A stretch of 64,000 bases of DNA from Liolophura sinensis (taxonomy: Eukaryota; Mollusca; Polyplacophora; Chitonida; Chitonidae). The stretch spans positions 11,358,017 through 11,422,016 of the forward strand of contig NC_088307.1 of assembly GCF_032854445.1 (NCBI RefSeq). The letters are read 5' to 3'. The notes below the pieces were generated by a model. The model was not told where the DNA came from. It ran no database searches and was given only the letters and a program-made list of their open reading frames with translations. Each line of letters begins with the position of its first letter. Within the stretch, counting starts at the first letter, position 1. Position numbers and translations under genes: made by a program. Of this stretch, positions 19,111 to 64,000 are shown piece by piece.

Positions 19111-19217
19111 GAGATAATGTTATCTGACCAACCCATGTCAGGTGTGCCACGTCCGGGTACTTAAAACGGTCACATCCACACCTGCGCCATTCCTGTGACA
19201 GTCCTTGTGCTTGACAG
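19111..19217 (+). promoter_or_regulatory. Gene A promoter module: GATA palindrome and non-coding first exon
   Basis: GATAATGTTATC at 19113-19124 is a perfect palindrome of two GATA sites. CAGGTG follows 14 bp later, then a stretch ending TTGACAG/GTAAGT with the donor at 19218. The same order and the 93-bp palindrome-to-donor distance recur upstream of B, C1, C2 and D (85-95 bp). The 3' part is read as a 5'-UTR exon joining the ATG exon at 20971. The transcription start is not visible. Confidence 0.72.
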
Positions 19218-20174
19218 GTAAGTCCTTAGATGGCGTGCATATCTGTTAATCGAGAAGCAACGGAGTTCATTTCCTCGCGACTCGAGTCCAAGCTATATTG
19301 ACTCTTGCTCACCTGCAATGCATGATTTGCACACGTTTTCCAGTTCGCCAAAAAAACACCATCACAAATCCAGGAATGAACAACAGATCACACGGCTTGG
19401 ATCTCTTTAGGATGGGAAAGAATCATCATTGTTAAGGTGATGGGTATATGTGAATCGCGCTCCGGGTAGTGAGACTGCCCCTGTAAGTCAGGAAGTTAGA
19501 TATGTTTTGAACAATAAATCGTCTGTTTTGTTGGCAAACTCCCGTTTTCCATTTTTACACCATTTATGTATACGTTTCTATCACCTGAATCAACGAGCAA
19601 CTTTTGGCTTCATTACCGTACAACTATATATGATCTGCTCATCTCTCACCAAGCCACTTTCGGATTCACTATATATACACATACATGTAACTGCAAACAG
19701 TGGGGGCTGGGGGGTGGGGGGGTATTGGTGGTGGAAGGAAAGCCACTTGTTTTATATCTGCCGAGGAGCACTCTTGTTTTGGCGAGAGCGTGGCATTGTG
19801 CACGTCTTCACACTTTGGATAACGAGGTTTGTTGGTCAACGTTGTTAGAAATGTCAGAGATAAAGTCCAGTGGGAAATTTCCAGCTCAGCTTGGCTGAGA
19901 TATCTCATCATGAGTGAACCATTGATATAAACACATGTACGGAAACAGGATTCGCTCAGTAAAACCTTGGCTATAACTGGAGTTTGTTCAAATCCCCCTA
20001 ACTTTAAACGGACTGTTATAAGTAGCGCTTCCAGAAAAAAAAACAACACATATGTCTTCATCGACAAATTTGCAGATTGAAACTGTATTCTTGACATGGC
20101 TAGGTTTTGATCTGGCTTCTGTAGGAAATATTTTAAATGTGCGAATAACTAGTGTTTAGGGTCTAATCTATGCG

Positions 20175-20530
20175 TCAAAACAGGCATTCGTACAACAGCC
20201 GTCAACCAATAAGGACGTTCAAGGGCAATAATTGCAAGACCAGTTTCTAAAACGACGTATAACACAAACCACCAAAGAACGTAGAAAGTATATCAAGTAG
20301 GAAAATAGGACGGAATCATGCAAAGAGAAGCAGTAAACAGTTTTTTATATCTTGTTGTGATCTAATTCAACAAGATGAATATATAGCCCTTAGCCCCGGG
20401 TTAAGCGGAATTGGACATAATCACGAAGCCGCAGAGATTCTGTGCGCTCTGTCCACAAGTACCTACAAAAGAATTATGCTCACTGTAAAACTTAAGAAAC
20501 TTGGAGTGAAGGCGTTTAATGGAATAACCT
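20175..20530 (+). repeat. Dispersed repeat R4 in the 5'-UTR intron of gene A
   Basis: The blocks CGTCAACCAATAAGGACGTT, GAAAATAGGACGGAATCATG and CAGAGATTCTGTGCGC recur at 32055-32520. Parts recur at 41230-41480, 59900-60110 and 61020-61190. Every copy lies in the flanks or 5' intron of a gene-family member. Confidence 0.65.
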
Positions 20531-20689
20531 TGACACACTAGTTTTTGCAGTGATAACTTGTGACGTCACACATCGTCACACATCGTCACACAACGCGCAG
20601 GATCTAACAAATGCAAGATCCTTCGGTATATTGCTGTCCAAGTAAGGATAATTTACAATGCCGAAATATCCCTCTAGTCGTAAAGTTTG

Positions 20690-20970: not shown

Positions 20971-21059
20971 TCTACACAAAAACCACTCAGCCATAAAACA
21001 GTCGCTGGAATCAGAAATCATGTCAATATTTTGCCTATTAATAATCTGTGGCTTTGCAG
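20971..21059 (+). CDS. Gene A signal-peptide exon
   Basis: The acceptor TATTTATTTCAG ends at 20970 and the ATG is at 21020. Thirteen codons MSIFCLLIICGFA are followed by one base and the donor GTAAGT. The spliced junction gives GFA-A-A-E-R, a credible signal-peptidase site. The same 40-nt coding layout appears in all copies. Confidence 0.88.
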
Positions 21060-24000
21060 GTAAGTGCAATAACTATTTAAACATGATCTGCATGAGAAAG
21101 AAAATACATTGGATATCTTTAAAATTAAATATTACTGTAATAAAGAATTAATTATACATTTTGTCATCTGAAAAAATCACCATGATTTACATCATCGAGT
21201 CTTTTTTTTTTCCTACTGTATGGTTTAAAACAGTTTTTGACATTTCGGCCCTATCCCCAATTCTTATTTAAATTCGCCACTTTATACATGTATTCCTATT
21301 TTAGTGAAATTATTCACCAACACTTATTAATAGATGTTTAAATGCTTTGGATATCATTTCATTTCCATTTTTCAGAGCGTATCTGCTATCTTATATATCA
21401 ATTCGTCTAGCCCCCCAAAATTAATCTCATTAGCCTTCAGTATTCCCTGAAAAAGTATTTCCTTGAAAAAAAAATTGACAAAGCGTGTCTATGAATCTTT
21501 TGTCTTGTCTTTTCCACGACGCCTTTGTCCTATGTACATGGTCTTTATACATGCGCCCCCCCCCCCCCCCGCCAGCCACGGTGCGAGGGGGGTGTATAAT
21601 TGCTACTATAGTTAGAATAACACCGTATCTCAGGTAAACTTACGAGCCCACATATCCCTGGTTACGTCTGACCGTTTGCCACTTTTCACACTGTAATCTC
21701 TACCAAGATTCTTTTGGCGGACTAAGCATCCCAGAGACCTGGTCCCTTTGCACTGTTTTCATGTTATTGTATATTAAACGTGATGACAACACAGCAATTT
21801 TAGTAATTCTAGACCAGTGACGTCTAATAAATTGCAATAAGCATCACTGCATTTATGTTACATAATTTTACTAGAGCCATGGTGCTAGAGAGCTACTGTT
21901 TAAGCATATACGTGAACAGTTAGAATAAAACCCTAACTGAGGTAAATTAACAAGAGACCATATTTCACTTGTTACGTGTGACCATTTGTCAATATTCACA
22001 CTGTCGGCGCTGTTCTGGGTTTGCTCTCTATGCTGTAATCCTATTATTATATACCACAGCCGCAGAGCGTCCCATTAACCCGGCAGAGTTCCCCAAAACT
22101 ACGAAACTCATCACAGATCTAGCCGGAGTTGCTGGACAATCCTCTGCCTTACATATATGCGTCAACAAAGTGGACACTCCTCTAGACAAGACCATCCATT
22201 TTGGCGATCAAGTGGTTCAAATTAGCGACAAGATGAAGAAGATAGAGCAGAGGACGGAAGTGACGATAGATATCATGAATACTGTGATGTTGATACCTTA
22301 CGTGGGACAGGCAGCGTCCATCGTCCTTCACCCAGCGGTGGCCGTCCTTAATACTATCAAGTCTGGGGTAAGTGCGCAAGGAATATGCTCGACTGCTACA
22401 GTTATGGTGTGAGGGTTCACTTTGTAAATGCTTGTCCTAAAATCCGTGGCGATTTTCTTTGGCTTGGGTAGCCATTTTCCTAAAATTAGCATGAGTTTCA
22501 ATTCAAACCCAGCGATGGTCGTTATCAACTTCAACAAGTCTGAGGTAAGCGTGCAAGACACATATGTTCCTGTGCTACAGTTATGGTGAGAGGATTTTTT
22601 TGGACTCGGTAGCACTCCACCTAGAAATAACCTGTTGTCTTTGTCTTTTTCTTTCAGCGTTCAGTTTTTATAAGTAAGTCTCTTAATACAGTTCGTCTAT
22701 TAGTAGTGGCCTCATTGCAGTTTGTAAAGATATTAGGATAAGAAGCAAACACGAGTAAAAAAGGCGTCATGTCCAGAAGTCTAGAGATACTGGACATTCA
22801 GAACTAAACTGTGCGCGCGCACAGAAAACCATACCTGTGCGACTTGAGGCTTAGTGAGCACAAGGTGACAGGTCATGTACGACTTGGTTAAGTATCACTA
22901 TACTGTGACCAGGTGGAGCCTCGTGTCTTTTGTATCTTACACATCTTTTCAGAAAAACACTGCATTGATATATTCTGACGGTAGAAACAGTCTTTATATA
23001 ACAGAAAAAAGCGATGTTAATGCTATATATATAATGTCTGGACTTATATAAAAGGCAATAGACTAGAAAACTAACCAAGTCAGTTAAAGGATTCCTTGAT
23101 ATGCGTACAGATCAGAAAATAACACAGTTATTTTTGGGTTTCGAGATTTCCCAATTCTTCCAACCAGCAATTCTTTTTTTATTATTTAGATAGCGAAGGT
23201 CGAGCCGATTGTTGCCGGGTTTGCCAATAAGCTACATACATGGACTGCTCCTCTCCAGACGGTACAACACAAAATTGACTGGGTGACGGCTAAAATTGGC
23301 GCATTTACCAACATTGTGTCCACCAGTGAGTTTTTATACCATGCATTTTCTCAATACCGAAGGAATTATCTCCTTTCTAACATATACTACAAGAATTGCT
23401 CATAATATGATGAAAATTTTGGTATTTAGGGAGTTTATATTCAGGACAGTAGTTGAAATATAATGTGTGCATTAGTTGAATGTTGTTTTGGAAATGGCTC
23501 TTGCGATTATCGACTTGGAACGCCCTTTACGGACTACGAATGGTATACAAATGTCGGACATGACGCTTATATTTTGGCAATGGATCTATTGGATTTGGAA
23601 TCTATCTACAATGTCTCATTAGTTAGATTCAAATTGTAATTTTCAAATGGACAGCGACATTCTCATGACTCCTAATGTTATATGGTTGATCAATAATGAG
23701 GTAATGTAGGATGAACCTTGGTTACTGGTGTGTAAGCCCCTTTAAGGATATTATGATGTAAAACACGACAGCTTGGAGAGTACAACGAGTGAAGCGACCA
23801 CAACAGCTCTTAAGATTTCGCTCTAACGTCCCCATTTCTTGATGCATACGTTCCCATTTCTTGATGCATACGTCCCCATTTCTTGATGCATACGTCCCCA
23901 TTTCTTGATGCATACGTCCCCATTTCTTGATGCATACGTCCCCATTTCTTGATGCATAAAGGATAAATTTAAACATGTTCACATTGAGACATTTCCTCAG

Positions 24001-27000
24001 AGATGAAACTCAAAGGAGTAACTATTTCTCAAGGAGACAAAATATCTTCCGTATTTCTTATACAAGTCAACCAAAAGCCATAATTTAATTTACTTTTGCG
24101 ACAGTTGATGCCAAAGCAATGGCGGCGGAAGGATGTGCCAACTCACTTCCGGTTGGCAGAACAAAAGTGATCCACGCGCTGGAAGGTGTTTCCGGCAAAT
24201 TAGATATCATTCCGCATGGATTCAGCCACCTACTGGGAGAAGTTAACAAGGGCTGCCAAAAAGTGCAAGGTGTCCTCGGGAAACTCCACCTACTGCGCAG
24301 ACGCAGAGGATTACCAAGTCTCAGCAAAGTGAACCGTAAGCTTATGGATTTAAATTTATATTTATGTTTAAGGCTCCATCAAAAGACGCCATAGTTTGCT
24401 GCGATAGCACTGCTCTTTGTTGTTCATTTTCATAATGAGCACCACTACATTAATCGGACATGGAAAGCTTTACCGGTTTTTATTCATAAAACAAATAACA
24501 AAATAGCTAAAATTAAAAAAAAAAGTTATTGTTTTCACAAAACGTTTTTTTCGCTATATGTGTGACGTTTCATTCGGGTTCCATTTCAGACGTTTTGGAC
24601 GCCATTTTGTCGGCATTTGGACCGCTGGGGCACTTTTTGGATGAGGTCGACCACGTGCTGCACAAAAAGTTCTGTCTGCTTAAAAGGTATCTGTATGCTC
24701 ATCATTCAACCTTTCTCTGTAGCTTGAATATTTGAACCTGCCTTCTGTATTAGGTTCTGTCGTCTTGAAAGGTCGGAGCACTTGATGGCCAAGTGATTGA
24801 TACCGCATTTGACACCACTAACGTCGGTAGTGGATCTACACCAGGAAATTAGAAAATTTGTTGAAATTATAACAGAAAATAGCTCTGATATTCATTCAAA
24901 GAGATATGATTAACAATTCTCGTGGATCTCGATTCAGCAATTGTATCAACACAACAGGATTTTTCTGCGGCGAAATATTTAACAAACAAAGTAAAAGCCA
25001 TTTGTCTTCTGTTTTTAGATTACCAGATTTAATATTCCATTAAAACAACTACAATATTAATATAGACTGAAGTCCCGAAGCTCGTGTTTGTTGCTGTTTT
25101 TTTTTAACTTTTGCAATTTGTTTATGTTTAAAACACAACATAAGCCTACAGGGCTTCATAGGACAAGATGCTATGGCGCATTGTTTAGACTACAGTCACA
25201 TTACATCCACACGCACAAACATATACATGCACACATACACGCACATATACACGTACTCATACATCCATACATACACGCACATATACACGTACTCATACAC
25301 CCATACATACACGCACATACACACGCACACATACACGCACACTTACACATCCACATCCATTTTGATTTGTGAACTTTTCATAAAAGGCTCCATCTGTTTA
25401 TCATGAACTGTGTTCACAGCCTTGAGGAATTAGTTAAAGCCGGTGTGAAAATTGGAAAGGAAGTGGCTAAAGGTGCAGAGCACATCGGAAAAGAAGTGAT
25501 CAAGGGAGCTAAGCACATCGTTGATGAGGCCGGCCATGTGTGGGTGGAGGTAGACAAAGCCGCTGAGCATGTCATTCACGAGGTAGGACACGGCATCGAG
25601 CACGCTGGCAAGGAAATCATTAAAGGCGCCGAACATGTTGTTCACGAAGTTGGTAAAGGCGCCGAACACGTTGGTCACGAGGTTGTAAAAGGCGTCGAAC
25701 ACGTTGGTCACGAGATTAGCAAAGGTGTCCACCACATTGGTCACGTGCTTCATCACATCTTCGGTCGACGGGAGCTGGAAGAGAACCTGTACCTCGTCGA
25801 CGGAAACCTGTACTTACTGGTAAATGTAAGTGACGAGATAGATTGTTGAAGAAAAATGTTTATTTATTTAATTTATTTTTTTTATTTGGTTGGTGTTTGA
25901 CGCCATATTCAATAACACGTTACTTATACGGATGGTGGGAGGAAACCGGGCAGCGCCCTGGGGAAACCAAGACAATCCGCTGGTTATGACTCTTCAACCT
26001 ATATACCCGTGCGGTGGTTGATTGGGTTTTCTGCACCCATTAGCCCCTGTCGTGTTTGTTGGTTAGGTTTCCTCCACCCATTAGCCTCTGTCGTGTTTGT
26101 TGGTTAGGTTTCCTTCACCCATTAGCGTCTGCCGTGTTTGTTGTTTAGGTTTCCTCCACCCATTAGCCTCTGCCGTGTTCGTTGGTTAGGTTTCCTCCAA
26201 CCATTAGCGTCTGCCGTGTTTGTTGGTTATGTTTCCTCCAACCATTAGCGTCTGCCGTGTTTGTTGGTTAGGTTTCTTCCACCCATTAGCCTCTGCCGTG
26301 TTCGTTGGTTAGGTCTCCTCCACCCATTAGCCTCTGCCGTGTTTGTTGTTTAGGTTTCCTCCACCCATTAGTGTCTGCCGTGTTCGTTGGTTATGTTTTC
26401 TCCACCCATTAGCCTCTGCCGTGTTTGTTGGTTAGGTTTCCTCCACCCATTAGCCTCTGCCGTGTTTGTTGGTTAGGTTTCTTTCACCCAAACCTAACCA
26501 TCATTTAAATGTAAAAGAAATATTCAGTACAACTTAGTAAAGGCACTGATGTAGATAAATACATACAAATCACTCAGTTATCTCTAAACCTCGGTTTCTT
26601 CCTACCATAATGCTGGCCGCTGTTGTAAAAGTGAAATATTCTTCAGGACGGCGTGATAGATGTACAGCATAGAGAGTAAATCCAGAGCAGCGGCGACACT
26701 GTGACAGTTGACAAATGGTCACACGTAGCCGCTGAAATACGGCCTTTTGTCAATTTACCTCAGTTAGGGTTTTATTTTAACTGTTCATGTAAATGCATAA
26801 ATAGTAACAAATTACACGCCCCTTAGAACCATGGCTCTAGCAGAATTAGGTAAAAAAAAAATGCAGTGAAGTTAATTGCAATTTATTATACATCACCGGT
26901 CTAGAATTACTCAAAATGCTGTGTTATATATTTATATAACTAAACAGTGCAACAAAAGTAAGTTCCCCCCAAAACGTTGTTTGATATCTCCCGTGTTATG

Positions 27001-28699
27001 TACCAGATCGCAATGAAATTTTGCACACACCATCCCAGTAATCCGACGGACGTGGTATATCAAGGATTAACGTACTGGCGCAGTTGTGCGCTGATGGGTA
27101 TGCGCAAACTGAAAACCGGTCGATTTTGAAAATTTCACAAAAGGAGTTTTGATTTCATCAGAGAATTCGTGTTACCAGTCCTGAAATATTCGTGCGGGTG
27201 GGCATTGAGGACATGATACACACCGCAAGAAATTCATGCGGTTAAACATAACCTGCATCGGGTCTGAGCTGGTCAGTAAAAGGTTCTCGGACCTGAATCG
27301 CCCACACTGCACTCTATATATTTGTAACCAGTTTTGTATTGCAACAGTGGTTTTCACTCAAACAATGAATAACATAAAGTCTATACAAAATAGGAAGCAA
27401 CCTGAATCACTTTAAGTGGGTTAAATACTGCGAGACTACGAAGAAGTTGAAGTTGTTGTTGTCGTCAGTGTGATTTATTCTTTTTTTCAGGGAAGTATGA
27501 ATACGCGCACGCGCAGAGGCATCGATGTTTGCGTGAGTCTAAGCGACATTCTCAAGGGAGTGAACGCGATCACGGGAGGTCTGATTGGTAAAGCTGAGGG
27601 TCTTATTGACAAACTTTTCCACGGGAAAAGTCCATTCCACATTCCAGGTAAAAAAGCTATGTGCGATCTATGTAGGCTTTTTGTGTTGATACTTACCGCT
27701 CCACAAGTAACTCTGTCGGTGTGTCGGTCGGTCAGTGGTCCTGTCGGTTGGCCGTTTTGTCCGCCATTCAAGTCACAAGCATTGCTTTCAGCTTGTCTTC
27801 ATAATGTCACCTGTCCTGAAAACTGATGTGCTGATATGACATTAAATATCTCTGCAAGGAAGAGTCAAGACATAGAAACCCTTACGTTTCAGAAAAGTGG
27901 GGTCGAATATCTTGACAGACTGAGTAACATGGTCCTCATGTATAGGTTGGTACAAACGATGAATGCAATGAGCAGTATTTGATTTCCGCTGAAATATCGG
28001 GAGAATTACGGGATTTTGCCAGTTGGAGTAAGGAACCTCGACCTTATTAACCAGTGCCCTCCAACATAAATAGCTATTGGGTATTTAGAAGATCAACGCA
28101 AATGGAAAACACATGAACAATCTTCCGATATCAATTTCTAATTGTCAATATGAGTCGCGTTAAATAGTGATGTCTACAGCAAAATGACAAACCTTCCTGC
28201 AGTCTGTTATTCCCACTCTCAAAATCTCGTGCTTCTCGCGAGATCTTCAGGAAAACATCTTTGAACTTGTAATTGTTTCCAGGTCTCTCCACCGACGTCC
28301 TGCACATTGGATCCCTTTTCCACAACCTGAACTTTGCATCGATCCTTCCCAGCGCTAAAGACCTTCTCAAGTTGCCGCAGTTAAACATGGAGAATATCCT
28401 TAAGCTAAATGTGAAGCTGTTTGATCAGATGTTACCGCAGTGTGCCGCGACATTTGGTATGTAAAAATATTTTTTTTAATTTTTCTTATTAACAATCAAT
28501 GTTTTATAACGTTAATAGCCTTATGTTAACGCTAAATTTTGGTGCTTTTGGTCGATGTTTCTTAGGTCTAGTTTGTTCGCAATAAGCAGAATATGAGGCA
28601 TTCCAGAAACTGTTCAGGGCAGAAATCTAAATAATAGGACATTTATGTGAATTTATAGAGTCACTTTCTTGTTTTGCAGCTAAAGTCCACTTTGGATAA
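21020..28699 (+). CDS. Gene A: secreted precursor of an unrecognised tandem family, 522 aa
   Basis: Nine coding exons: 21020-21059, 22060-22367, 23190-23325, 24105-24335, 24590-24686, 25420-25825, 27491-27647, 28283-28456 and 28680-28699 (TAA). Intron phases run 1,0,1,1,2,0,1,1. I do not recognise the family. Residues 1-15 form a signal peptide. Residues 16-161 form an N-domain with INPAEFPKTTKLI and a hydrophobic VMLIPYVGQAASIVLHPAV. Residues 162-238 carry EGCANSLPVGRT and end at a furin-type RRRR(226-229)/G. Residues 271-406 are 11-residue amphipathic repeats, very rich in His and ending HHIFGRR. Residues 407-458 open with RTRR(415)/G. Residues 459-522 contain LKLNVKLFDQMLPQC. Six cysteines outside the signal peptide (47, 172, 212, 267, 420, 512) are shared with B. 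The protein is probably exported and proteolytically processed; its role is unknown. It lies head-to-tail with B, C and D. Confidence 0.85.
21600..22040 (+). repeat. Dispersed repeat R3 ending just before exon 2 of gene A
   Basis: Blocks AGAATAAAACCCTAACTGAG and ACGTGTGACCATTTGTCAAT are shared with other R3 copies. The repeat ends about 20 bp from the exon 2 acceptor at 22059. C1 and C2 have the same arrangement. Confidence 0.65.
22507..22592 (+). pseudogene. Duplicated end of gene A exon 2 with its donor
   Basis: CCAGCGATGGTCGTTATCAA through CAAGTCTGAGGTAAGCGTG and a trailing CTACAGTTATGGTGAGAGG repeat the true exon end and donor region at 22331-22415. The duplicate has diverged (TCTGGG to TCTGAG), keeps GTAAGC, and has no acceptor of its own. 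Confidence 0.8.
23827..23958. repeat. 22-bp minisatellite, 6 copies
   Basis: CGTCCCCATTTCTTGATGCATA repeats six times, nearly perfectly, in intron 3 of gene A. Confidence 0.95.
25205..25360. repeat. ACAC/ATAC-rich microsatellite
   Basis: Interspersed ACACAT, ACGCAC and CATACATCC blocks, with one 39-bp partial duplication around ACGTACTCATAC. It lies in intron 5 of gene A, directly upstream of the repeat exon. Confidence 0.85.
25420..25825 (+). CDS. Gene A exon 6: His-rich 11-residue repeat domain
   Basis: Codons 271-406. The core is a run of 11-mers: IIKGAEHVVHE, VGKGAEHVGHE, VVKGVEHVGHE and ISKGVHHIGHV, then LHHIFGRR. The pattern hydrophobic-x-K-G-small-x-H is what an amphipathic 11/3 helix looks like in synucleins and apolipoproteins. 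The ending EENLYLVDGNLYLLVN is shared with the paralogues. His replaces the Ala/Thr/Lys used at the same positions in B and C, so metal binding or pH response is conceivable. Confidence 0.85.
25872..25985 (-). mobile_element. SINE1, truncated
   Basis: Tail block TGGTGTTTGACGCCATATTC, then TGGTGGGAGGAAACCGGGCA. It stops at AATCCGCTGG. It sits in intron 6 of gene A. Confidence 0.75.
26035..26490. repeat. 41-bp minisatellite, about 11 copies
   Basis: The unit ATTAGCCTCTGCCGTGTTTG plus TTGGTTAGGTTTCCTCCACCC has GTC/TTC and CCT/CGT variants. It lies in intron 6 of gene A. Confidence 0.95.
26585..26655 (+). mobile_element. SINE1 tail fragment
   Basis: CCATAATGCTGGCCGCTGTT followed by AAGTGAAATATTCTTCAGGA is the 3' part of SINE1. 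Confidence 0.7.
26695..26945 (-). repeat. Dispersed repeat R3
   Basis: The blocks GACAAATGGTCACACGTAGC, CAGTTAGGGTTTTATTTTAA and ATGGCTCTAGCAGAATTAGG are closely matched at 63545-63730. Confidence 0.75.
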
Positions 28700-32050: not shown

Positions 32051-32054
32051 TGCA

Positions 32055-33099: not shown

Positions 33100-36000
33100 A
33101 TGGTTGTGCTTTTCCTGTTGTTCTTCTGCGGGTTAGCAGGTAAGTTTAACTAAGAAGTTGCAACGGGTGTCTGTATGTTAATGTGACTGGAAAATCTGTT
33201 CTAATGTTTCCAACATTTGTCTGTTCGTATGTCCGGATTTAACCGGCCAAATCGTAGAACGTTCAAAGGTTGGAAAATTTGCCATCAGGAATGACGTCTT
33301 TGGATATGTGGCGTTGAACTCAGAGGATTAATGGTCTTCATGGTGTTTCATTGATGAAGCGAGATAGATTTTGCTAAAATATCAATTATTAATTTTGCTA
33401 AAATGATGTGGACTTATCATATTATTATATTATTGACATATTTCCTGGTGTTAATTTCTTTCTCAACAGCCTCACAACGCTCTATCAACCCCGCCGAGTT
33501 TCCCAAAACCATTGAGCTGATCACAGATCTGGCCGGCGTATCGCAAAAATCCGCTTCCCTTGAAACATGTATCAAGAAAGTGACCAGTCCTCTGGACAAA
33601 ACTGTTCATTTTGGCGACGAGATAGCCACGGTTGGGGACAAGATAACGACGTTGGTACAGCGAACCGAGGTCATTGTTGACATTCTCGATACCGTTATGT
33701 TAATACCTTATGTCGGAGAGGTTGCCTCATTCGTCCTGGAACCCGCCGTGACCGTTCTTAATGTCATCAAGACAGGGGTAAGTGTCAACCCTGGAATGGC
33801 ATCTGCAGAGTTATAGTTGTTGCGAATAGGGTTACATGAATGCGTAATGTTGGGGAAACAGGTTTTCGAGAAAGAGACTGATTGGGATCAAATGATGCAA
33901 CTTAACAGTCTTGTTTTGGAAATACACGCGATTATAGTCTTACGGCAGTCTTACTGCCGTACTGATAAATTTCACAAATACAAAAGTCCCAAAGATGGCG
34001 TTTCCATATGTAACATGTAAATACATACATGACGAGAACGAAATGTAAAAAGTTTTTAAACATCCGGTTCCATTAATTGGGAATTGATTGAAACAGCTTT
34101 TTTCAAAGAGAAGATCTTGCAAAAGCCGACCATTGTTTTTCGTATATTTGAGTAAAATCGTCTAACCAAAATAGGCAGATGTTATGTCCTGGCGATCAAT
34201 GTATTTCAGTTATCAAAAGTAAAGCCAGTTGTTCAGGCCTTCGCCAACAAAATGCATGCATGGATCCAACCCCTTAAGGCCGTGATGAATAAAATCCATT
34301 GGGTGGAAAATTCTATTGGCAAGTTTGCCAAAATTGTAACCGCTGGTGAGTAAAAAAAGTCCTTCAGCGACCATAAATTTTGTTCCTCACATCTAGAATA
34401 ATGATTTGGTAACTTTGTCTGGTATAGAAAGAGAGATTCAAATTATCTTCGCTGAGTCACACTGTTGAGTCGTTCATCGTAGTTTTGTTCTTAAGCACTT
34501 CAACTGTAATACGATCAGTGATCAGTTTGTCAATGTGGCAATCCTTCTTCCTCACACTGTGGTAATATATTTGATTATTGCTTAAAGTAAGCCCGTAACA
34601 TTAGAGTTGTACAGAAAAAAAGCCTTTGGAACACGCCTCCAAAGACCTGATGCTTTGCATTGTTTTTATTTTAATGTATGCTAATTGTGATGACAACACA
34701 GAATTTTTAGTCATTCTGGACCACAGACGTCTCATAAATTGCTATTAACACAACTGCATTTTTTCAGTTAATCCTGTGTTAGCCATGATGCTAAGGAGTG
34801 TTTCATTTGTTACTATTTTAGCATTTACATGGATAAAATAAAGTCATAACGGATGTAAATTGATAAGGGGCTGTATTTCACCAGTTACGGGAGACCATTT
34901 GCCAACTATCATATTGTCGTCGCAGCTCTAGTTTTACTCCCATGCTATAGTCCTTTGATATTTATTTACTTGATGGATGTTTTAGTGGGATGATGTATAT
35001 TCTACTTTTGCCCTGCTTTGTTGTATCAGTCGATGGCAAAGCTGCGGCCGCAGAAGGGTGCGTCAACTCACTTCCGGTTGGCAGAACACCGGCTATCCAC
35101 GCCCTAGAGGGAGTTTCGGGTAAACTGGATGTGGTACCTGACGGATTCGGTGTGGCGTTGGGGGCAGTGAACACCGGGTGCAGCAAAATTGAGGGCTTCT
35201 TAGGGAAAATCCACCTTGTACGCAGGCGCAGAGGATTACCAAGCTTGGGAGCCGTAAACAGTTAGTATGGAAAGCTACTATATATATTTGGCCAATTTGA
35301 AACTAAGTCGACTAATTCATAGTTCTATCTGAGGACGCAGGGAAGAATCCAGAAGTGCCTAACTTGACGAAAGTTGTAACCAGGAGCCCTTGTAATCAAA
35401 ATGCAGCTTGTGGCGTAACAACAACCACAACATGAAAATCAACCCTAAATCTTAATTATTGTTACTGAACTTTAATTCAAGAAGGCGGGCTCTTAATAAA
35501 AACAAGATATAGGATTCAACTAACGACTTACATTTCTGACTGGCAATCATTCATAATTAATTTTGTTTAATCCTTTTAGACGAGAATCGTGTCGGATTAC
35601 CACATCGAAGTTCTAGTTAAAATGGAACTAAATTTTTCCAAAAATTAAAATCCCATCGCTGCCACCAAAATTTCATTCATGTGAGTCAACTTACACCCTT
35701 AATTAATACTAGTAAGTTCTCCCGCCGTACGTGGGAAGGTCTGCCAGCAACCTGCGGATGGACGTGGGTTTCCCCGAGCTCTGCCCGGTTTCCTCCCACC
35801 ATAATGCTGGCCGCCGTCGTATAAGTAAAATATTCTTGAGTACGGCGTAAAGTACCAATCAAATAAATAAATAGATAAATAAATAAATAAATAATAGTCA
35901 GCTAATTGAGGAAAAGCTCAAACATCTTTCTAGAATTTACGTGGAGAAACATTATGGATATATGTTTGATTTATGATATATGATTTTTGCAGAGGTACTG

Positions 36001-48430: not shown

Positions 48431-48483
48431 GTGAGTGTTGTTTGTCTAATTCACTAGAGACCCTTTTTACAAATCATTCGCAA

Positions 48484-51400
48484 CTTGCTTTGCGAGCAGT
48501 TTTGTGGGCGAAGGAAACCTGAGTACCAATCTACAGACGAAAGCAACTGATCATCAACGAACGTAAGACTTTACAAGCGGTCTCACAGCATCCATCGACC
48601 GGATATTTATTAAGATGATTGGTGTTTTTACGCCGCACTTATTTCACTTATATGACGTCGGCCAGCATTATGGTGGGAGGAAAGCGGGGTGAGCCCGGCG
48701 GCAGGGGGGACCCAATACCATCACTAACCACCTCGGCCACCGAGGTCCCTCTCAAATATGCTTAAATGACTTTCCTTTATATTATGCATACGTTTCTATA
48801 GTTGCTGTGTTTCGTAATAAACAGGCCTTCGTGCCGTGTAGACGCTTGAATTGTGCATTTGCCACCTTGACCTAGTGTTGGAAAGTAATCTTAATTTCGA
48901 TGGATGTATACCCATATCGTTAAGTAAGACACGTACGTGTGGGACAGGAATATGTGAAGAGTTCAAGATATAGGGAACTTGTGAATGTTCTACCTGTAGA
49001 AGATAATGTTATCAGTTTTACACCAGGTGCGGTTATTTTTGCATATTTCAATGCCGTCATTTTTGCAAACGGGTCTTTCTCGCGGCGTTCATTCCAGTAG
49101 CAGGTAATTTCTATAGACTCATATCAGCCTCCATTTGTTTATTCTTGAAATATTTTTGATTCATTCTGGTCTGTTTTTAGGGTTATTTGTCAATTACGAT
49201 GACCTTGTCAACAAACAAATATTCTCACACAGCCATCTGTATATTCTTGCAATATTTTTTTTATTTATTTTGATATCTTTTGGGGTTTTTATTTTATCAA
49301 CTTTGTTGACTTTTCTTATGAATAATGATAATTCTGCATGTATGCACTAAATACGATTTCATTTGATCTGAGTGGTGTTTTACGCCGTACTCAAGAATAT
49401 TACACTTATACGACGGCGGCCAGCATTATGGTGGGAAGAAACCGGGCAGAGCACTAAATACGAGTGCGTGAGTGTGAGTGCTTGGGGTTTAACGTCGTGC
49501 TCAACAATTTTTCAGTCATATGACGACGAAGGAATCATTAGGGTGCATGTACGTGTAATGTGCCTCCTTGTTGCAGGACGGATTTCCACCGCTCTTTTAT
49601 TTAGTGCTGCTTCACTGAGACGACTTACCGAAGGCAAGTAAGCCGCCCCGCCCGAGCCATTATACTGATACGGGTCAACCAGTCGTTGCACTATCCCCTT
49701 CATGCTGAACGCCAAGCGAGGAAGTTACAACTTCCTCTTTTAAAGTCTTAGGTGTGAGTCGATCAAGGATTGATCCTGGATCTACCGGTCCCGAAGCGGA
49801 CGCTCTACCAACTGTGCTATCCGGGCCGGTCACTAAATACGAAACCATGTCTACGAATATTACAGGACTTAAGGAAAGACCGCCTCGAAAAGACATTGGA
49901 GTCACTCGAATAAAGAAACCAATATGGCGATACTGTTTTTGCTACTCTGTTGCGGTTTAGCAGGTAAGTTTTAAAAAAAAAAGATAAGTAAAATGGTGGG
50001 ATTAAACGGTATGGCTGATACATACTGATATTATAGAACTGTCTTGATGAGAGAGAGGAATAGACTTTAGTCTTGGAACCATAGAGCAATGCATGGTACT
50101 CAGTAATACCTTTGCAATAGTCAGTAATACCTTTACAATACTCAGCAATACCTTTACAACACTCAGTAATACCTTTACAATACTCAGCAATACCTTTACA
50201 ATACTCAGTAATACCTTTACAATACTCAGCAATACCTTTACAATACTCAGCAATACCTTTACAAATCCTTCATCCATCATGGTGTCATTCATTTTACATT
50301 GTAGTTTTGCAAATAATCCCCCTTCTTTCAGCTGTACAGTATATACAGTTATATTTACATTTTTCTTTGACCTCACAATGTAAGATCCCTCGCTAACTAG
50401 GTCATTTCAAAGGGGGAGAAAACATAAAAAACAAGCAGATGTCATATAATGAGTAAATATAGTCAAGAATTGTTTTGGCGGACTTCTCAAAATAACTTTT
50501 CCTTTCTTCAACTTCGTGACCAAGTATAAGACACAGCACAATTCATTGTTGGAGAACAGATACAACAGCCGATCTTTAATCTGGTTGAGTGCCATACATA
50601 CACATGATACATGCATGTACCACACTTTCAGGTGTAAAACAGATAAATCGTTTCTTAGAGTTATCTGGAACGTACCCGGCCTTCAAAAAAAACAGAGATA
50701 AACCTTTAGCACCATACCAATAATGCTTTGTCTGGCCAAACTCTCTGGGAAAAGCACTGGATTGTTCTGGTAAATTTTGCATACATAAAGCAAGCACTAC
50801 TGTTTACTGTAATGTGTTATGTTTTCTGGTGCACCATTGCTTATCCACGTATCTTATCAAATTAAAGCAAAAGAAGCCAGAAAACCATCACAAAAGCAGT
50901 ATTTTCCATAGAAAACATAAATTTTTGAGTCTAGGAACCACAAACTGTGATATTGAATGATTATTCAGCCCTCATGCCGACGTACATGGCGTTGCATGCC
51001 CGCCAAAAAAGCACCCCTATGGTCCCTCCGTGCGAAGAGAGCATAATTTCTCTCTAATCTTCCCTCAACCGAGAGAAATTACATTGTTTGCTGGATACTT
51101 GGGACCACCTCTTGTTATGATGGAAGATCAATGCATTTACACATTGACATACTCTGAATGAGAATCTGATGCATATCCAATAAATTCATTTAACGTGACA
51201 ATTCTTGTTTTTAACTAAGATATGAATTATATCATAATAACGGAGTACATTCTAGCATCGCTCAGAAAATAGACTTTCTGTTAAAATGAAGAGATTAACC
51301 TTTTGAGTGTATCACTCCGAACCACTGTTATACATCGCTGCGAAACAGGTTGTTTTGTTACCGTAAATTCGTGTGACCATTCACCAATTGTCACACTGTC

Positions 51401-53476
51401 GTCACTGCTCTGGTTTTACTCTCTCTGCTGTAGTCTTTTATATTGTGTACTCCAGCCTCAGGGCGCCAGATCAACCCCCAAGGACTTTCCGAAAACCACG
51501 GAACTTATCGGGGACCTAAGTGGTGTCCGGACAATCTACTTCCCTAGAAGCTTGCATCCATAAGGTGGCCAGTCCAATCGATAAAACGATCCGTTTTGGC
51601 GACGAAATGGCTGCCATCGGCGAAAAGATAAAGAAAATAGTGCAAAGAACAGACGTAATCATTGAGATCCTGGATACCGTGATGCTGATCCCGTACGTTG
51701 GGGAGGTGGCGGCGGCCGTCCTGGAGCCGGCCGTGGGTGTACTGAACAGTATCAAGTCAGGGGTGAGAGACAAACCGTGGAGAGAACAGCCCACCCGTTG
51801 AACAGGATTTAGCAATAATTGTCGTTTTATTTATGAATTTATTTATTTAATATTTGATTGTTGCTTAAGACCATATTCAAGAATTACCCAGTCAGACGAT
51901 GACGGTCAGTTCTTATGATCGCTTGTGTTGTTACCAAAATCAGGGGTATTATTATTCAAATATAGATAGAGGGCATTGCTGTTATGTGAGTTACAAAGTT
52001 GCGAGTTGTGCAGATTTGCTTTCCATTAGATACGGCCGAAGAAAATTGATACTGCTCCCAATAATGTGTAAACCCCATTCTCTACAACAAGGAGTCTAAC
52101 AACAGCTAGAATATCTGTCTGGTGTGCCTGAAAATAATGAGCCTTCTAAATATAGAATTTTTCCAAATCCGTCAAACGTAAGGTTTTGACATGTCATACA
52201 TATTATTTAATTGATATCTGGCTGCTATAATGTATGTACATCAAGTGAAAATAGAATTCAAAAGTATTCCCGAGTGATGAAGAGAGATTCATGAAAATAT
52301 TAGTGTGGACTATCAAAACCTTAGGTTTAAAGGGATACAGAATCGATTCTGACTGGCAGGTGTGAGAGATAGGCAAGTCCAGACTATGCCTGGCCTAAGC
52401 TGAATTTTAGGTACGGCACATATATTCACGCATGACGGAGGCTGCAGTGTTTAACCCCGGAACCCCGTACCTGTACTGTCAGCCAATCAGCCTCTATTCT
52501 GTGTCCCTGTAAAACATTTTGAATCATTGCGAATTTAGGTGTTAAAGCTTTGAGGTGTTTACTTACAAAAATCTCCTTATTTGAAATGTTTTTTTAATTC
52601 CCCTTTTTTTATCTACAGGCCTATTTTATAGAATACGGAATCCTTTCAGATCGCAAAAGTGAAACCGGAAGTTATAGCATTCGGCAACAAAGTTCACCAG
52701 TGGACAGAGCCTCTCAAAACTGTTCAGCACAAAGTGGAATGGGTGGAAAAATCAATAAACAGTTTTACGGTAATTGTGAATGAAGGTGGGTATAGTGAAC
52801 ATTCATTTTCTGTCCTATCATTTCCGCCTTGCTAGTAAGACTATACATATTCATAAGTATCTAAAGTCTAATGTATTGTAGCTTTTTCTCGGAACTGACA
52901 CGCGATTAAAAACGGGTTAAGGCGACCTGATTTAGGAGAAAATTAACGAAAATCGGAGTTGATACGTTTTATGGAAATATACGTTCTTCAGTCGTACAGT
53001 GGAAAGAGCTATTTTTTGCACTACTTTTCGTACTCTCTGAACACAGTTGAAGGAAAAGCCTCCGCAGCGGAAGGATGCGTCAACTCACTTCCGGCTGGTA
53101 GGACGCCGGCAATCCACGCCTTGGAAGGAGCGTCGGGCAAACTTGACGTCATTCCACACGGATTTCGCGTGGCGTTTGGGGCAGTGGATTCAGGTTGCCA
53201 AAAGGTCGAGGGCGCGCTCGCCAGAATTCACCTTGTACGCAAACGCAGAGGTTTGCTAAGTCTGAGCAAAGTGAACCGTGAGTGTTGTTTGTCTTGATGT
53301 GTTTCGAGCTAACACCAGGGCTTCGTTCTACGAAACAGTCTCAACTTCCGCCCGGCGTGACAAGATATATTTCAGACAAAACTCGTTATGTTAATACGCT
53401 TGACGAAGTGTTGCGATAGCTTTGTAACAAGGCATAATTCACTAGAGACCCTTTTTACAAATCATTCGCAACTTGC
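48484..53476 (+). repeat. 5.14-kb tandem duplication, unit 2 (C2 5' half)
   Basis: It is offset by +5140 from unit 1 up to about 52820, where the SINE1 is missing. Unit 2 also has a 141-bp segment at 53295-53435 that unit 1 lacks at 48447/48448. It continues into the unique 3' half of the gene. Confidence 0.93.
49002..49103 (+). promoter_or_regulatory. Gene C2 promoter module (copy of C1)
   Basis: GATAATGTTATC at 49002-49013, CAGGTG and the donor after 49103 are identical to C1. Confidence 0.72.
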
Positions 53477-54020: not shown

Positions 54021-54259
54021 ACGTTCTGGACGCCATTTTGAAAGCTTTCGGACCGTTTGGACATTTTCTGGATGAGGTCAACGGTGTCTTGAACAAAAAG
54101 TTCTGTCTCCTTGAGAGGTAAGAATACACCGCCCTTAAGGCGAGAGTAGATTTGGTTGACTCAAAAGTGTTTGTGGTTAAAAATTGTATTCCAAAGCATC
54201 ACATGATGTTATAACGAGTTTTGCACGAAAGATCCAAAGCAATATATACTCAATAAAAA

Positions 54260-54774: not shown

Positions 54775-55130
54775 TATGGCAGCCTGGAAACAGAGTGGTC
54801 AGTACATACAGTCATATACGCTGGTGGCCAAGCTCTCTAGCACCATGGCAAAAGTAGAATTTAAAAAAAAAACAGTGAATTGTAATATATTGCACGTCCC
54901 TGGGGTATAATTATTCAAAATCTGAATTGTAATTTATTACACGTCACTGGGGTATAATTATTCAAAATCTGAATTGTAATTTATTACACGTCACTGGGGT
55001 ATAATTATTCAAAATCTGAATTGTAATTTAATACACGTCACCGGGGTATAATTATTCAAAATGTGAATTGTAATTTATTACACGTCACAGGGGTATAATT
55101 ATTCAAAATGTTGTGCTGTCATCACAGGCA
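54775..55130. repeat. R3 repeat with internal 47-bp array (about 4.5 copies)
   Basis: AGCACCATGGCAAAAGTAGA marks R3. The block GGGGTATAATTATTCAAAAT plus CTGAATTGTAATTTATTACA plus CGTCACT repeats between 54900 and 55110. Confidence 0.85.
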
Positions 55131-55585: not shown

Positions 55586-56033
55586 CATTGAAAAATTAGT
55601 GGAAGAAGGCGCCAAAGTTGGAAAAGAAATAGCAAAGGAAGCCGAGCATATTGGGAAGGTCGTTGTTCATGGAGCTAAGCATATCGTTGGCGAAGCTGGA
55701 CACATCTGGGTTGAAGTAGACAAAGGTGCCGAGCATGCTATACACGTGGTGGGACATGGTATTGGAAGTGCCTACCACAAAGTCGTGGACGTCGTGAAAC
55801 ATGTTGGCGAAGAAATTGGCCATGGCGTCGTGACCGCGGCCAAGACGGTTGGTCATGAAGCCAAAGTCGTGGGGGAGACGGTTGAAAAAGGCGTCGTGAC
55901 TGCTGCTAAGACGGTGGAGAAAGGTGTGGTAACAGCGGCCCACAAAGTGGGTCACTTTTTCAAACATTTATTCGGGCGAGGAATGGCGGAGAATATCTAC
56001 TTCATTGACGGGGAGCTGTATGTTTTGGTTGAC
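55586..56033 (+). CDS. C2 exon 6: 11-residue repeat domain
   Basis: 149 codons, fully open. The 11-mers include VEKGVVTAAKT followed at once by VEKGVVTAAHK, and an earlier HGVVTAAKTVGHEAK. It ends KVGHFFKHLFGRG, so the dibasic FGKR/FGRR of A and B is reduced to FGRG. The acceptor is preceded by a pure TTTA/ATTT microsatellite (55545-55585). Confidence 0.82.
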
Positions 56034-56649
56034 GTAAGTGTGTAGGTTTTACTGGTTTTATTTTTTGATACCAAGAAGAACCTGTTTTCGATAACACACG
56101 TTGCATCTTGTTGCAATCTTATGGTTAAAGATGCGTTCCCACTGTGCAATTTGCCGTACCAATTTTTTTCGTGCTGTCGACGTACAAGCATGTCATTTCA
56201 GTTGGTTCCATGTGATATTACATTGTGGCATGCGGTATCAACTTGTTGCAGGCGATATCACGTTGTTGCATGAAGTATCAACTTGTCACATATGTTATCT
56301 TGTCACATGCATGTCAAACTCTTGAGTATCAATGAATCGATTGATAGACTGCTTGATTGATATTTGATTTGAAGTTATGTGAATGCCGTACTATTGAATA
56401 TGGAGTTAACGGAAATAATAACTTATTAACCTGTTTCAGGGACATGTGGAGACGCGCACGCGCAGAGGACTTGACGTCTGTTTCAGCTTGGGTGACATTC
56501 TCAAGGGACTTAATGTCGTCACTGGGGGACTGATGAAGGCGGCAAAGGGTTTGATTAGCAAACTTTTCCACGGGAAGAGTCCATTCCATCTTCCAGGTAA
56601 GAAAGGGGCTTGACCTCGCACGTGACAATCTTTAAATGCTCGTTTTATG

Positions 56650-56906: not shown

Positions 56907-57822
56907 GCCCGTTTTCAATGTTCACTACAACTATTGACAATAGAGTGAGTATACTGTTTCAGGATAATGACTACTCCGATCTGAGCGAAAAATGACCATT
57001 GTACTCGTGGTATGAATGAATTCCACCACATTATCAATTTGCTTACAAAACACCATTACGAGGGAGATAATGGACAGTATACTATACTTTAATTTATCAT
57101 ACGTTTACCATATCTTTGTCATGACACAGGCCTCACCGGTGACGTCCTCCATATCGGCTCCCTGTTCCACAGTGTGAACCTGGCATCGATCCTGTCCAGT
57201 GCTAAGGACTGCTCAAGTTACCCCAGGCCGACATGCAGAAGATCATGAAGTTAAATGTGAAGCTGTTTGATCAAGTGCTACCACACTGCAGGGCAGCGTT
57301 TGGTACGTGAGACAAAATTTGCGTGACATTTCATATGCATTGGTGCATACCCTCTTGTTGCCGGCGTATATTGTAAGCTCGCCTGCACAAAGTACAAACG
57401 TAGCTTATATCATACCCCGAGCACCGAGATCCATTAACAGGGAAGGCAATGTTGAAGTAAATGTTAGGGGGATTGCGGGGGGGGGGGGGGGGGGAGGTGT
57501 GTATCTTGGAAAGTGTTCGGCATACATTGAGTTCAAGTTTTGCAAATATGTAGAGCACAATGACACGAGGGTGATGTTGTCTCGGTCATGAAATGTATGC
57601 ATGTACATTAATTACATGCACGATAAATTACAAAATTGACAAAATGCTGTATTATCTATTAAAATCAATGTTAAGGTACATGTTAGGTGTGGCATCTCAA
57701 AGAGTGCTGAATCAATGTGCTGAGCTGGGGCTTTACATACATGCTTTACATACCTTGTGGACAGTGCTTCTTTAGTAAATTTATTGGTCAGTCAGAGAGA
57801 TTGTTGTGACAAAAATTAGCTG

Positions 57823-58048: not shown

Positions 58049-58560
58049 TTTCTTTAGTGTAGTTTCATTGTAACCAACTCATAAGGTATGCCTTTGGCCG
58101 AACTAGACATTTACCGTTACTTTGAAAAACTTGAAAAGACTAACCGGAAAAAATTCAAAGCATGCAGTAAATAGCTTTAATAGCATTTTCATTTGATGTT
58201 TTTCATCAGTCGGCATCTGATACTTTCTAAACTTCTTTGTTAAAGAAAATTCTTTCTTTGCAGCAAAATTCAACACGAAGGGATAATCTGGTGAGTCATA
58301 ATTGGCTTTTTCAAATTTTAAATACTGTTATCAACGTAGGAATTTCATAATGAATTTAGAATAGAAAGCATTCTTTTTAATTGTAAAAAATATTATCAAA
58401 ATGTACAATATTCTCCTTCTACTATTATTTGTTTTTCAAGGGGAATAGGTTTGAAAATAATGTTTTCAAGAAAATGATAATCGACGTTGCACAATACCAC
58501 TAGTACGTGGGAAAATTGTTTATATCAATGTTTGGTATGCTTTACATTTGTTTTTGACAG

Positions 58561-60667: not shown

Positions 60668-60774
60668 GATAATGTTATCTAGTATCGGACACATGGGCAG
60701 TTCTCACACTGGTAACGCGTTGTTCTCACGCACGGGCGGTATCATGTAGTCTCGGTCTTTTTACGCAAGACAGG
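60668..60774 (+). promoter_or_regulatory. Gene D promoter module: GATA palindrome and non-coding first exon
   Basis: GATAATGTTATC at 60668-60679 and the donor AAGACAG/GTAAGT after 60774, 95 bp later. The CAGGTG element is replaced by CACATGGG. The ATG-exon acceptor is at 61354. Confidence 0.68.
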
Positions 60775-61384
60775 TAAGTAGTAACTACGGTTCTACCATA
60801 CCGCTCCTGATTCGGTGTTTTATGCTGGGACCCGTAAGGACTCATTTGCCTAAGACGTTGATCTCGCCCTTCAGTAGTAGGGTAGCGAGATCCAGTTCAG
60901 TTCGCAATGGTTTAGCTGCGGTATTAGTTGAGAAGAATTGACAAGTACTTGAGGAAACGCGGTCTTTTCCACGTTACTATTCGGTTTCGTCCACCCAATG
61001 ATCTAGGAGTCAAAACAGACCTCGACATTCGTATACCAGTTGTCTACCAAAATGGACGCTCTGGGTCAAAAATCTCTAGACCAACTAACAACATTCAACA
61101 CAAACCACCAAAACAAGTAAAAGTATATGTTGAAAAGGCGCAAGGAATGTTCTAGGCGAATAAATGAAATCAGTTTTCGATAATAAAGGTATGTATCTCT
61201 GCCTTCTTTCCTCACACCATAATGCGACTTTCCTCCCACTATAAGTGAATTTTTTCTAAGTACAACATAAAACTCTACTGAAATTAATAACTGAATCATA
61301 GTGGTGGGCTCGAAGTGTATGTTCCAAGTCGACAATTGTCAGTTCATTTTGCAGAGTTCACCGAGGTGAAAGTTGGGAGCCAAA

Positions 61385-64000
61385 ATGCTTTCATTCCTCT
61401 TGCTGTTGGGCATCACTTGTGTGGGTAAGTTGAACGTTATTGGGCTTTCCTTCTTTTCTCTCCATCTGATTTTTACCGATCTACGTTTAAATCTACTTGT
61501 TTTTTTTTTCTCACTTACCTCAAGAATTTCTTAGTGATGCTGTATGCCGACAGATATGGACGATTCGTTTTCCTTGGGCAACGCTATATTCACGAACATT
61601 TCCGCTACGCAAAATGAAAGTTTCCTCCATTAACTCTTTGTTATTTTTACACTCCAAATGACATTTTTGACATGTGGCGATATCACATCCTTCTCCAGTC
61701 TTTGCCTGACGACGTACTTGTACTACAAATGGTTGTCAGGGAAATTCAATGGCCCTGTACTTCATCGTAGGGATCGAAGGCTTTTGAAGCTATGCATTAC
61801 AAGTTCTTAAAGGATTCTTCGAACTTATATAACCTTATACTTGTAGAGGCGTTTGAACTGTATATGAAAAGTGAAACTCTATAATATTGTTTACCACATC
61901 TTTTAGCATTTTTCATTATTAATTAGGATGCACATTTACCGCATTCATTGCAATGCTCTTGGTAATACAAAATCGTAACTCATCGCACGAAAGTCACTAG
62001 GGTCAGTTGTCACTTACCAATCTTCATGAAAAACATAACTAGATTTTGGGAATCTGATAATTAGAGAAGAATATATTAGTGAGCATCTTTAGTTAATGCC
62101 GAAGCAAGATTAAATATAGCTGCTAAAGCAGAGATGCCGGGGCTCAAGCCGGTATTGCCTGCCTATACGGTGTCGCTTCCGGTTACCTTAATGTTGTCCA
62201 TGTATAGACACATAACCAACCTAATTGGAAAGCCTACAGTCTTCGTAGTCATCAGGACATTGTAAGTACACTGCATAGTGTGTATATATAGATTGCCAAA
62301 CGGGGAAAATCTACCTTTTGACAATATTTGAGGGCGAGGATGTCCCCTCTTTTTCAACACAGCTCAACCATTTTCAGCACACATGGAGTACATGTAAAGC
62401 GCTTTGCACTCAGTAATTTTCAGCTTTACGGCTGTAACAGTTTTCTGTCACGTGACCTGCAAATATGTGGGCGTTTTTTGGCGTTTTGATCGCAATTTGT
62501 GACAAAAATATACATTGCAGAGCAAAAAAAAGACCGGATTCGTGATCAGGAGGTCAAATTACATCAGATAACTTGTAAAATATCACCAAATTCAAATTTT
62601 TCGTTTTCCCATGACGTCATACCACATGTATTAGTCAGAGCCTAATTTGAATAAATATTGCATCCCTTTTCTGTCTAAATAGCCTCCATGGAACGCTTTT
62701 TATGTGTGCTAAATTTCAAGTCAATCGTTTTTACTTTAGCCCATAATGGCCGCCAGATCTCCTGTGGTCTATTACATACCAAAGTTTCACCCAATTTTGT
62801 TGAGACGTTTTTCAATTTTGAAAAATGAAAAATTGGCAATTTTTTTAGCATATACTACTTCCGGTTTGCTGACGCCACTTCCGACTGTGTAAAAGTTTTC
62901 TACTTGCCTTGCGATGATGTTAGGCCTTAAGGTTGCATCTCTAGTTTCATTGGTTGAGGAGATATACCTATTTGAAGTTTTGATGACGTCACTTCGGGTG
63001 TTGCAAAAATTGCATTTTCAGAATCAGCGTCCAAAACCGCATCATATGGGACTATTTGCTCGACTTTTTCTTTGGAATTGTAGAAGTTATTAGCAAAAAA
63101 CTGATTTTTTTGTCACAATGGCGAGCTTCTACAATTTTCAACGGAGAAAGTTCTCGTTCTATCGGTATAGGTACTAACACGTTTGATAACGGTATTAGCA
63201 CCTACACCGAAAAGGCGCTAACTGAATAAACAGAAGTTGTAATTCATATATGTGTTAGGTTGTGACGAATATGGCCAGTCTTATATTAGGGAGTAGCTAT
63301 TTAGCGCAACGGTGCAAGCAATGTACATGGTATATAAATTAACCAGGTTTCAATCCCTGTGGTGGGCAGGGAATTCGTAGATTTTCTTACTCTCGCGGTT
63401 CATGGGACAATAGCTATATTGAGCGGCTAACGACGCGTTTACACAGTCCATTATCCGTTGAAGACTACATGTCTTTTACCGGTTTGGTGTGCATAAACGA
63501 ATATAATTAAGACATACAGTATAGCGAAAAAAACTAGAGCTGCCACCACGGTGTCAGAGCTGGCAAATGGTCACATGTAACCGCTGAAATAAGGCCTCTT
63601 GTCAATTTATCTCAGTTAGGGTTTTATTCTAACTGTTCATGTAAATGCATAAATAGTAACAAATTACAATGCACCAAGTACCATGGCTTAAAGAGAATTA
63701 GGTAAAAAAAATGCAGTCATGCTAATTGCAATTTATCTAAATTTTTATTAATTTATCTAAATAAAACTTTAATATTAAATAAAACCACCCATCATCGTGT
63801 ATATAAGTGAAAAATTCTTGGATATCGCGTTAAACAAATAGTCAAATAAATTCTAAAAAAATAATTAATAACTTCATGAAAAAAATCATATCCGTTTTCA
63901 TCACACTTTTAAGAGCACCTTCACGAAATCCGTGGCCGTTTCCTTCCAGGCTCTCAGCATGTCATCAATCCGGCGGAGTTTCCGGAAACCACCGATCTTA
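61385..64000 (+). CDS. Gene D: fifth family member, 5' end only
   Basis: Exon 1 at 61385-61424 encodes MLSFLLLLGITCV plus one base and the donor GTAAGT, the family layout. Exon 2 begins at 63950 after TTTCCTTCCAG and reads GSQHVINPAEFPETTDL before the window ends. The INPAEFP motif is identical to A and B. The remaining exons lie beyond the window. Confidence 0.85.
61425..63949 (+). other. Intron 1 of gene D: contents
   Basis: A 2.5-kb AT-rich intron with R3 at 63545-63730 and a SINE1 tail remnant near 63795-63850. A B-box-like GGTTTCAATCCC occurs near 63347 without a tRNA fold. No additional exon is seen. Confidence 0.55.
63545..63730 (-). repeat. Dispersed repeat R3
   Basis: GGCAAATGGTCACATGTAAC, CTCAGTTAGGGTTTTATTCT and ACCATGGCTTAAAGAGAATT match 26695-26945 closely. 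Confidence 0.78.

Follow-up and report, generated by a model that had tools for sequence, protein, structure and literature searches.

Within a 64,000-nucleotide window of the genome of the chiton Liolophura sinensis (Mollusca, Polyplacophora, Chitonidae; contig NC_088307.1, positions 11,358,017 to 11,422,016), we find a head-to-tail family of genes encoding secreted precursors, the most informative feature of which is a block of amphipathic 11-residue repeats encoded by exon 6, a feature absent from the preliminary description of this stretch. The family is real and secreted, and is known here from one chiton species alone; as judged from their sequences, its members are probably proproteins that are both secreted and processed. 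In our preferred reading, to which we assign a probability of roughly 40%, the product would be an extracellular protein processed into disulfide-linked chains, the middle one coating a hydrophobic surface. Its main activity may be that of an interface-binding helix, with binding to a lipid surface as the most likely mechanism, a proposal whose chances we put slightly below even.

Two complete genes and the precursors they encode

Two members of the family, gene A (21020-28699, forward strand, 522 amino acids) and gene B (33100-39601, forward strand, 560 amino acids), are complete, with nine exons apiece and AG/GT at every internal border. The exons of A lie at 21020-21059, 22060-22367, 23190-23325, 24105-24335, 24590-24686, 25420-25825, 27491-27647, 28283-28456 and 28680-28699, and those of B at 33100-33139, 33470-33777, 34210-34345, 35030-35260, 35993-36089, 36819-37335, 37853-38009, 38952-39125 and 39579-39601. 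Exon lengths in A are 40, 308, 136, 231, 97, 406, 157, 174 and 20 nt (the last counted to the stop); B has the same lengths except in exon 6 (517 nt) and exon 9 (23 nt), and the coding sequence ends in AKVHFG in A and AKFNTQG in B, each followed by the stop. These borders and phases are the ones originally proposed for the two genes. The joined models are letter-for-letter identical to two L. sinensis proteins already predicted by NCBI as uncharacterized, LOC135480738 (P0002) for A and LOC135480726 (P0001) for B; a further paralogue, P0003, bears the NCBI name ‘suprabasin-like’. The A and B proteins are 59% identical, and homology between their exons is far above chance (E 2e-50 for exon 2). 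Exon 1 of A, at 21020, was located by a pattern search from 16,000 onward; the preliminary description had the family begin at 19,111, and nothing accounting for that start was found, no search having been aimed at an untranslated upstream exon.

The 40-nt exon 1 codes for a predicted signal peptide (MVVLFLLFFCGLA in B), a hydrophobic exon recognised by eye in A, B, C1, C2 and D, C1 and C2 being two parts of a third locus and D the start of a fourth copy. Beyond the signal peptide, exons 2-5 encode a non-repetitive region and exon 6 the repeats; a short stretch (ENIYFVDGKLYVLVD) then leads to the C-terminal part. As had been claimed, A and B each carry six cysteines after the signal peptide. 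B has R-X-[K/R]-R sites at residues 226-229 and 449-452, and A and P0003 have them in corresponding positions; exon 4 of both C1 and C2 reads RKRR and exon 7 of C2 reads RTRR. Were the precursor cut at both of these furin-type sites, three chains would result, carrying 3, 1 and 2 cysteines in A and B alike. The motifs previously listed as common to the copies are all real, although not all are letter-for-letter common to every copy: INPAEFPKT (A and B) reads INPKEFPKT in C1 and INPAEFPET in D; MLIPYVGEVA (B, C1 and C2) reads MLIPYVGQAA in A; LNVKLFDQ (A and C2) reads LNVKLFEQ in B; and EGCVNSLPVGRTPAIHALEG is exact in B only.

Rates of non-synonymous (dN) and synonymous (dS) substitution, estimated by the Nei-Gojobori method with our own script, gave dS 1.64, dN 0.26 and a ratio of 0.16 for A and B, dS 2.80, dN 0.26 and a ratio of 0.09 for A and C1, and dS 3.12, dN 0.21 and a ratio of 0.07 for B and C1, figures that are rough, with synonymous sites near saturation. 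The A, B and C1 proteins thus look like old paralogues held by purifying selection.

The family had been described as a head-to-tail array of unrecognised secreted precursors, with a profile search proposed in which a clear hit would speak against this. The shared strand, exon structure, signal peptide and two conserved furin-type sites bear the description out, and the sequences reached neither a cut-off in Pfam or NCBIfam nor any PDB chain, so that ‘unrecognised’ stands within these collections. In Pfam, where neither A nor B reached the cut-off of any family, B scored 16.6 bits against Apolipoprotein (PF01442; cut-off 90), for which A was not listed, and 19.0 bits, again below the cut-off, against Senescence; the perilipin and synuclein models were not listed up to E 1. 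PDB chains were matched neither by sequence (B, best E 0.18) nor by profile (best E 0.45), and synuclein chains matched B at E 0.28 and weaker. Nothing in NCBIfam came near its cut-off, the best match being that of P0003 to WalE1 (NF047982; 24 bits against 90), which we read as generic helix. All of these sub-cut-off matches fall on the repeats and other helical stretches. Among the PHROGs profiles, for which curated cut-offs do not exist, those of phage tail and tape-measure proteins matched B with E values as low as 9e-10 (38.8 bits, residues 43-406), with six profiles better than 1e-4 for B, one for P0003 (to 5e-5) and none for A (0.003). We take this as generic long-helix composition rather than phage tail homology, a reading for which no control was run, because the matches lie at scattered places in long phage proteins and because A, at 59% identity to B, has no equally strong ones.

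Protein searches over 5.8 billion proteins used full-length B (E up to 0.001), the N-terminal part of B (E up to 1) and, with E up to 10, a four-row profile from which the repeats had largely been removed. Each returned the same three L. sinensis proteins, P0001-P0003, and nothing more; the search requires shared 5-residue words, and the full-length and profile searches scored only those 8,000 candidates with the most words in common, so that more distant relatives may exist. Loosely similar helical secreted proteins may occur in other invertebrates. Literature searches gave no paper on LOC135480738 or LOC135480726, and among the matches listed for chiton mucus, for suprabasin together with molluscs and for the chiton shell proteome none concerned the family.

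An 11-residue repeat with a hydrophobic face

Exon 6 of A (25420-25825) consists of 11-residue (33-nt) repeats with a consensus of about V-G-K-G-A-E-H-V-G-H-E; that of B (36819-37335) has histidine-poor repeats of 11/22 residues, and that of C2 (55586-56033) 11-residue repeats, all on the forward strand. The repeat stretch spans 112-149 residues with zero proline in A, B, P0003 and C2, and is 39-44% hydrophobic and 26-30% charged. Residue autocorrelation over lags 2-30, compared with 500 shuffles per protein, peaked at lag 11 in A (0.40; shuffle maximum 0.22) and P0003 (0.45; 0.23) and at lag 22 in B (0.35; 0.21). The hydrophobic moment peaked at angles of 98.5 degrees in A, 98.5 in B and 99 in P0003, in agreement with a helix that makes three turns every 11 residues. 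At the 11/3 angle, moments in 33-residue windows were 0.42 in A, 0.43 in B, 0.43 in P0003 and 0.37 in C2, each higher than the best of 300 shuffles (0.29, 0.24, 0.21 and 0.24, respectively). These moments, and those in 18-residue windows (0.38-0.44), can be set beside the ones given in PMC5889406 for known 11-residue-repeat helices (CCT-alpha 0.48, apoA-I 0.39, Plin3 0.35, synuclein 0.30 and Plin4 0.257), with the proviso that our hydrophobicity scale and averaging may differ from those behind the published values.

Under our preferred reading, a furin-type convertase would cut the precursor at the two R-X-[K/R]-R sites and, were all cysteines paired, at least one disulfide would tie the middle chain to chain 1 or chain 3, because 3 and 1 are odd numbers of cysteines. 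On meeting a hydrophobic surface the middle chain would fold into a long 3-11 helix, and the protein could coat or carry lipid, whether in hemolymph, in the egg or in a gland secretion; it would then act in the manner of an exchangeable apolipoprotein or of perilipin 4 while belonging to neither group.

Perilipin 4 and alpha-synuclein are intracellular, whereas the chiton proteins carry a putative signal-peptide exon; the best synuclein chain (E 0.28) and the lack of a listed Pfam model up to E 1 likewise set them apart. The likeness is that the repeats of both can be read as a 3-11 helix, as PMC5889406 describes for the known ones. With the exchangeable apolipoproteins (PF01442; apoA-I, apoA-IV and apoE) the family would share secretion and a long amphipathic helix based on 11-residue units, with a comparable moment and an 11/3 hydrophobic face above that of shuffles; it differs in the sub-cut-off profile score of B, in an apparent multi-chain precursor with six cysteines, and in repeats without proline, of which apoA-I has several according to PMC5889406. 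We would describe the resemblance to apolipoproteins and synucleins as one of kind, reached in our preferred reading by convergence rather than membership, and make no claim of descent.

Besides the uncertainty of scale, several points weigh against lipid binding. AlphaFold backs neither fold nor disulfides: from a three-row alignment, the mean predicted local distance difference test (pLDDT) score was 34 with no residue at or above 70, making the model unusable, and although the part encoded by exons 2-5 was drawn mostly helical, its block pLDDT of only 27-52 makes this weak. The autocorrelation of B at lag 11 is 0.21, merely equal to its shuffle maximum, its period being 22. The repeats have a net charge of -1 to -12. 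Some phage tail profiles in PHROGs fit B better than Apolipoprotein does, and generic helical composition thus reaches far. Lipid binding and cleavage are predicted from sequence. Finally, the hydrophobic positions of the 11-mer (0, 4 and 7) would also suit an 11-residue (hendecad) coiled coil.

Competing explanations for the family

This last point belongs to the main rival, a structural secretion (mucus, cuticle or adhesive) in which the repeats would form an 11-residue coiled coil or a cysteine-cross-linked hydrated network serving as filler or glue, and which we regard as somewhat unlikely. Exon 6 also varies in length among the copies (406 nt in A, 517 in B and 448 in C2), as seen in structural proteins, and the NCBI name of P0003 points the same way, suprabasin repeats being rich in G, A, H and K; the name is an automatic one, however, and non-repetitive cysteine-bearing flanks are not known from suprabasin. 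The repeat region is 13-15% glycine, unusual for a stable coiled coil, and the flanks are non-repetitive and conserved at least as well as the repeats (62-76% identity between A and B, against 58%), the signal peptide, at 44%, excepted.

Were the proteins to bind metal, the histidine pairs (EHVGHE) would hold iron or copper, with a part in radular iron metabolism as one example; we consider this explanation improbable. It draws on a histidine content of 13-15% in the region that exon 6 encodes in A and P0003, and on the mineralisation of iron by chitons (PMC6351634). Histidine makes up 17 of 112 repeat residues in A, 23 of 147 in P0003 and 14 of 128 in C2, but 6 of 149 in B, a similarly constrained protein. 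Abundant histidine is not a shared family feature, and the histidine-poor B counts against metal binding as the main job of the family. The chiton radular matrix protein RTMP1, as described in PMC6351634, does have a signal sequence, a length of 539 amino acids and a histidine-rich region, but is also Gly/Ser-rich and predicted to be disordered, with a WF-rich chitin-binding-like region; by that description and by composition (Ser 4.0-4.3% and Gly 9.6-10.4% in the family) the two are set apart.

Equally improbable, in our judgement, is a membrane-active defence or secretory protein, in which, once processing has taken place, a hydrophobic segment encoded by exon 2 (in B, ILDTVMLIPYVGEVASFVL) would insert into membranes. 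This segment has the highest hydropathy past the signal peptide (1.54 in A and 1.68 in B) and its IPYVG is invariant across P0001-P0003; these values are, however, only borderline for a transmembrane segment, and pore-formers were absent among the Pfam and PDB matches. Release of an amidated peptide at HHIFGKR/GRR, as from a precursor of neuropeptide type, is very improbable: despite the signal peptide, the basic sites and the GKR/GRR in P0001, P0002 and P0003, C2 has FGRGM at that place, each of the three proteins has a single GKR/GRR and only two R-X-[K/R]-R sites, with no array of similar short peptides between those two, and the conserved parts are long and cysteine-bearing.

The lipid-coat reading, taken to its full extent, would make the family a class of lipid-coat proteins restricted to chitons, secreted, processed by a convertase and linked by disulfides, with an independent 11-mer helix of apolipoprotein/perilipin type, diversified by tandem duplication that included a switch between histidine-rich and histidine-poor polar faces; this composite we think doubtful. 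If the middle chain does bind lipid, an apolipoprotein-type helix would have originated independently in an extracellular protein, and the histidine-rich and histidine-poor paralogues would constitute a natural experiment on the role of the polar face. If the proteins are instead ordinary mucus or cuticle components, this is one more lineage-restricted secreted family, of a kind common in molluscs. Either way, the family, whose models were compared with database proteins and whose members were tested for selection, falls outside every family library used, in an animal class with few annotated genomes.

Locus C, copy D and repeats in the window

The preliminary description counted five gene copies. 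Besides the complete genes A and B, C1 and C2 turn out to be one locus with a partial internal duplication, and only the start of D lies in the window. Copies were sought by tblastn of the three database proteins over the 64-kb window (E up to 0.001), to which the counts apply; exons 1, exons 9 and the start of D were located by pattern or by eye. All tblastn matches to the family were on the forward strand, from 22,023 to 57,301. C1 (44784-48430) comprises exons 1-4 only (44784-44823, 46315-46622, 47511-47646 and 48200-48430), open in frame. C2 (49924-58286) holds a second set of exons 1-4 (49924-49963, 51456-51762, 52650-52785 and 53047-53277), followed by the sole exons 5-9 of the locus (54021-54117, 55586-56033, 56440-56596, 57130-57302 and 58264-58286). 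Exons 5-9 being present a single time, behind the second set of exons 1-4, C1 and C2 make up a single locus whose first four exons have been tandemly duplicated, rather than two genes. The claim of common exon lengths, sound for A and B, fails in C2, whose exons 2 and 8, at 307 and 173 nt (308 and 174 nt in A and B), are frameshifted relative to both genes; compared with C1, exon 2 of C2 carries a 1-nt insertion and a 2-nt deletion.

The duplicated units (43337-48447 and 48477-53294, forward strand) are offset by 5,140 bp. Within them, 43,337-47,679 is 99.2% identical to 48,477-52,818, and 47,968-48,447 is 97.5% identical to 52,814-53,294. The halves show 46 differences and gaps in total, two of them before 43,344 and one a 293-bp gap (extra in the first copy); they have zero differences across the 2.8 kb of 43,344-46,158 (= 48,484-51,298) and scattered ones beyond, at about 2% divergence. 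An identical stretch beside differing ones would be explained by gene conversion in the recent past, or by the assembler having set two haplotypes one after the other; PMC12005716 gives heterozygosities of almost 1% to 4.12% in four other chiton species. No protein of locus C appeared among the results of the three protein searches (full-length B, its N-terminal part and the four-row profile), and because of this and of the frameshifts in C2 the locus may be decaying or misassembled.

D (61385-64000, forward strand) is cut by the end of the window, which contains its exon 1 (61385-61424) and the first 51 nt of its exon 2 (63950-64000, SQHVINPAEFPETTDL). It may be the gene of P0003, a protein of 426 amino acids whose start falls within the portion encoded by exon 2 and which, past residue 396, runs in a different frame from A and B, tblastn having matched residues 397-407 to A and C2 in a shifted frame. 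Because of this start and this change of frame, P0003 may itself represent a damaged or mispredicted gene.

Elsewhere in the window, ten other open reading frames had no match in Pfam, and Rfam and tRNA scans of the window gave none. Intron 3 of C1 contains an insertion of ~290 bp (47680-47967) that the matching place in C2 lacks, with GGGGCCTCCGTGGCTCAGT near its left edge, a poly-A run at its end and a flanking imperfect 12-bp direct repeat (CACC[T/A]ATTATTT); we take it to resemble a tRNA-derived short interspersed nuclear element. A probe spanning 47650-48000 matched 31 pieces in the window, 28 of which are neither itself nor the two C2 flanks but partial copies on both strands. Minisatellites were found at 8735-9223 (35 bp x14), at 9963-10218 (52 bp x4.9), in intron 6 of A (26017-26490; 41 bp x11.6) and in intron 5 of the C locus (54876-55109; 47 bp x5). 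A second dispersed repeat, of ~370 bp, lies at 44322-44700, its longest other copies, near 12192, 14528, 30084 and 54621, being 71-91% identical.

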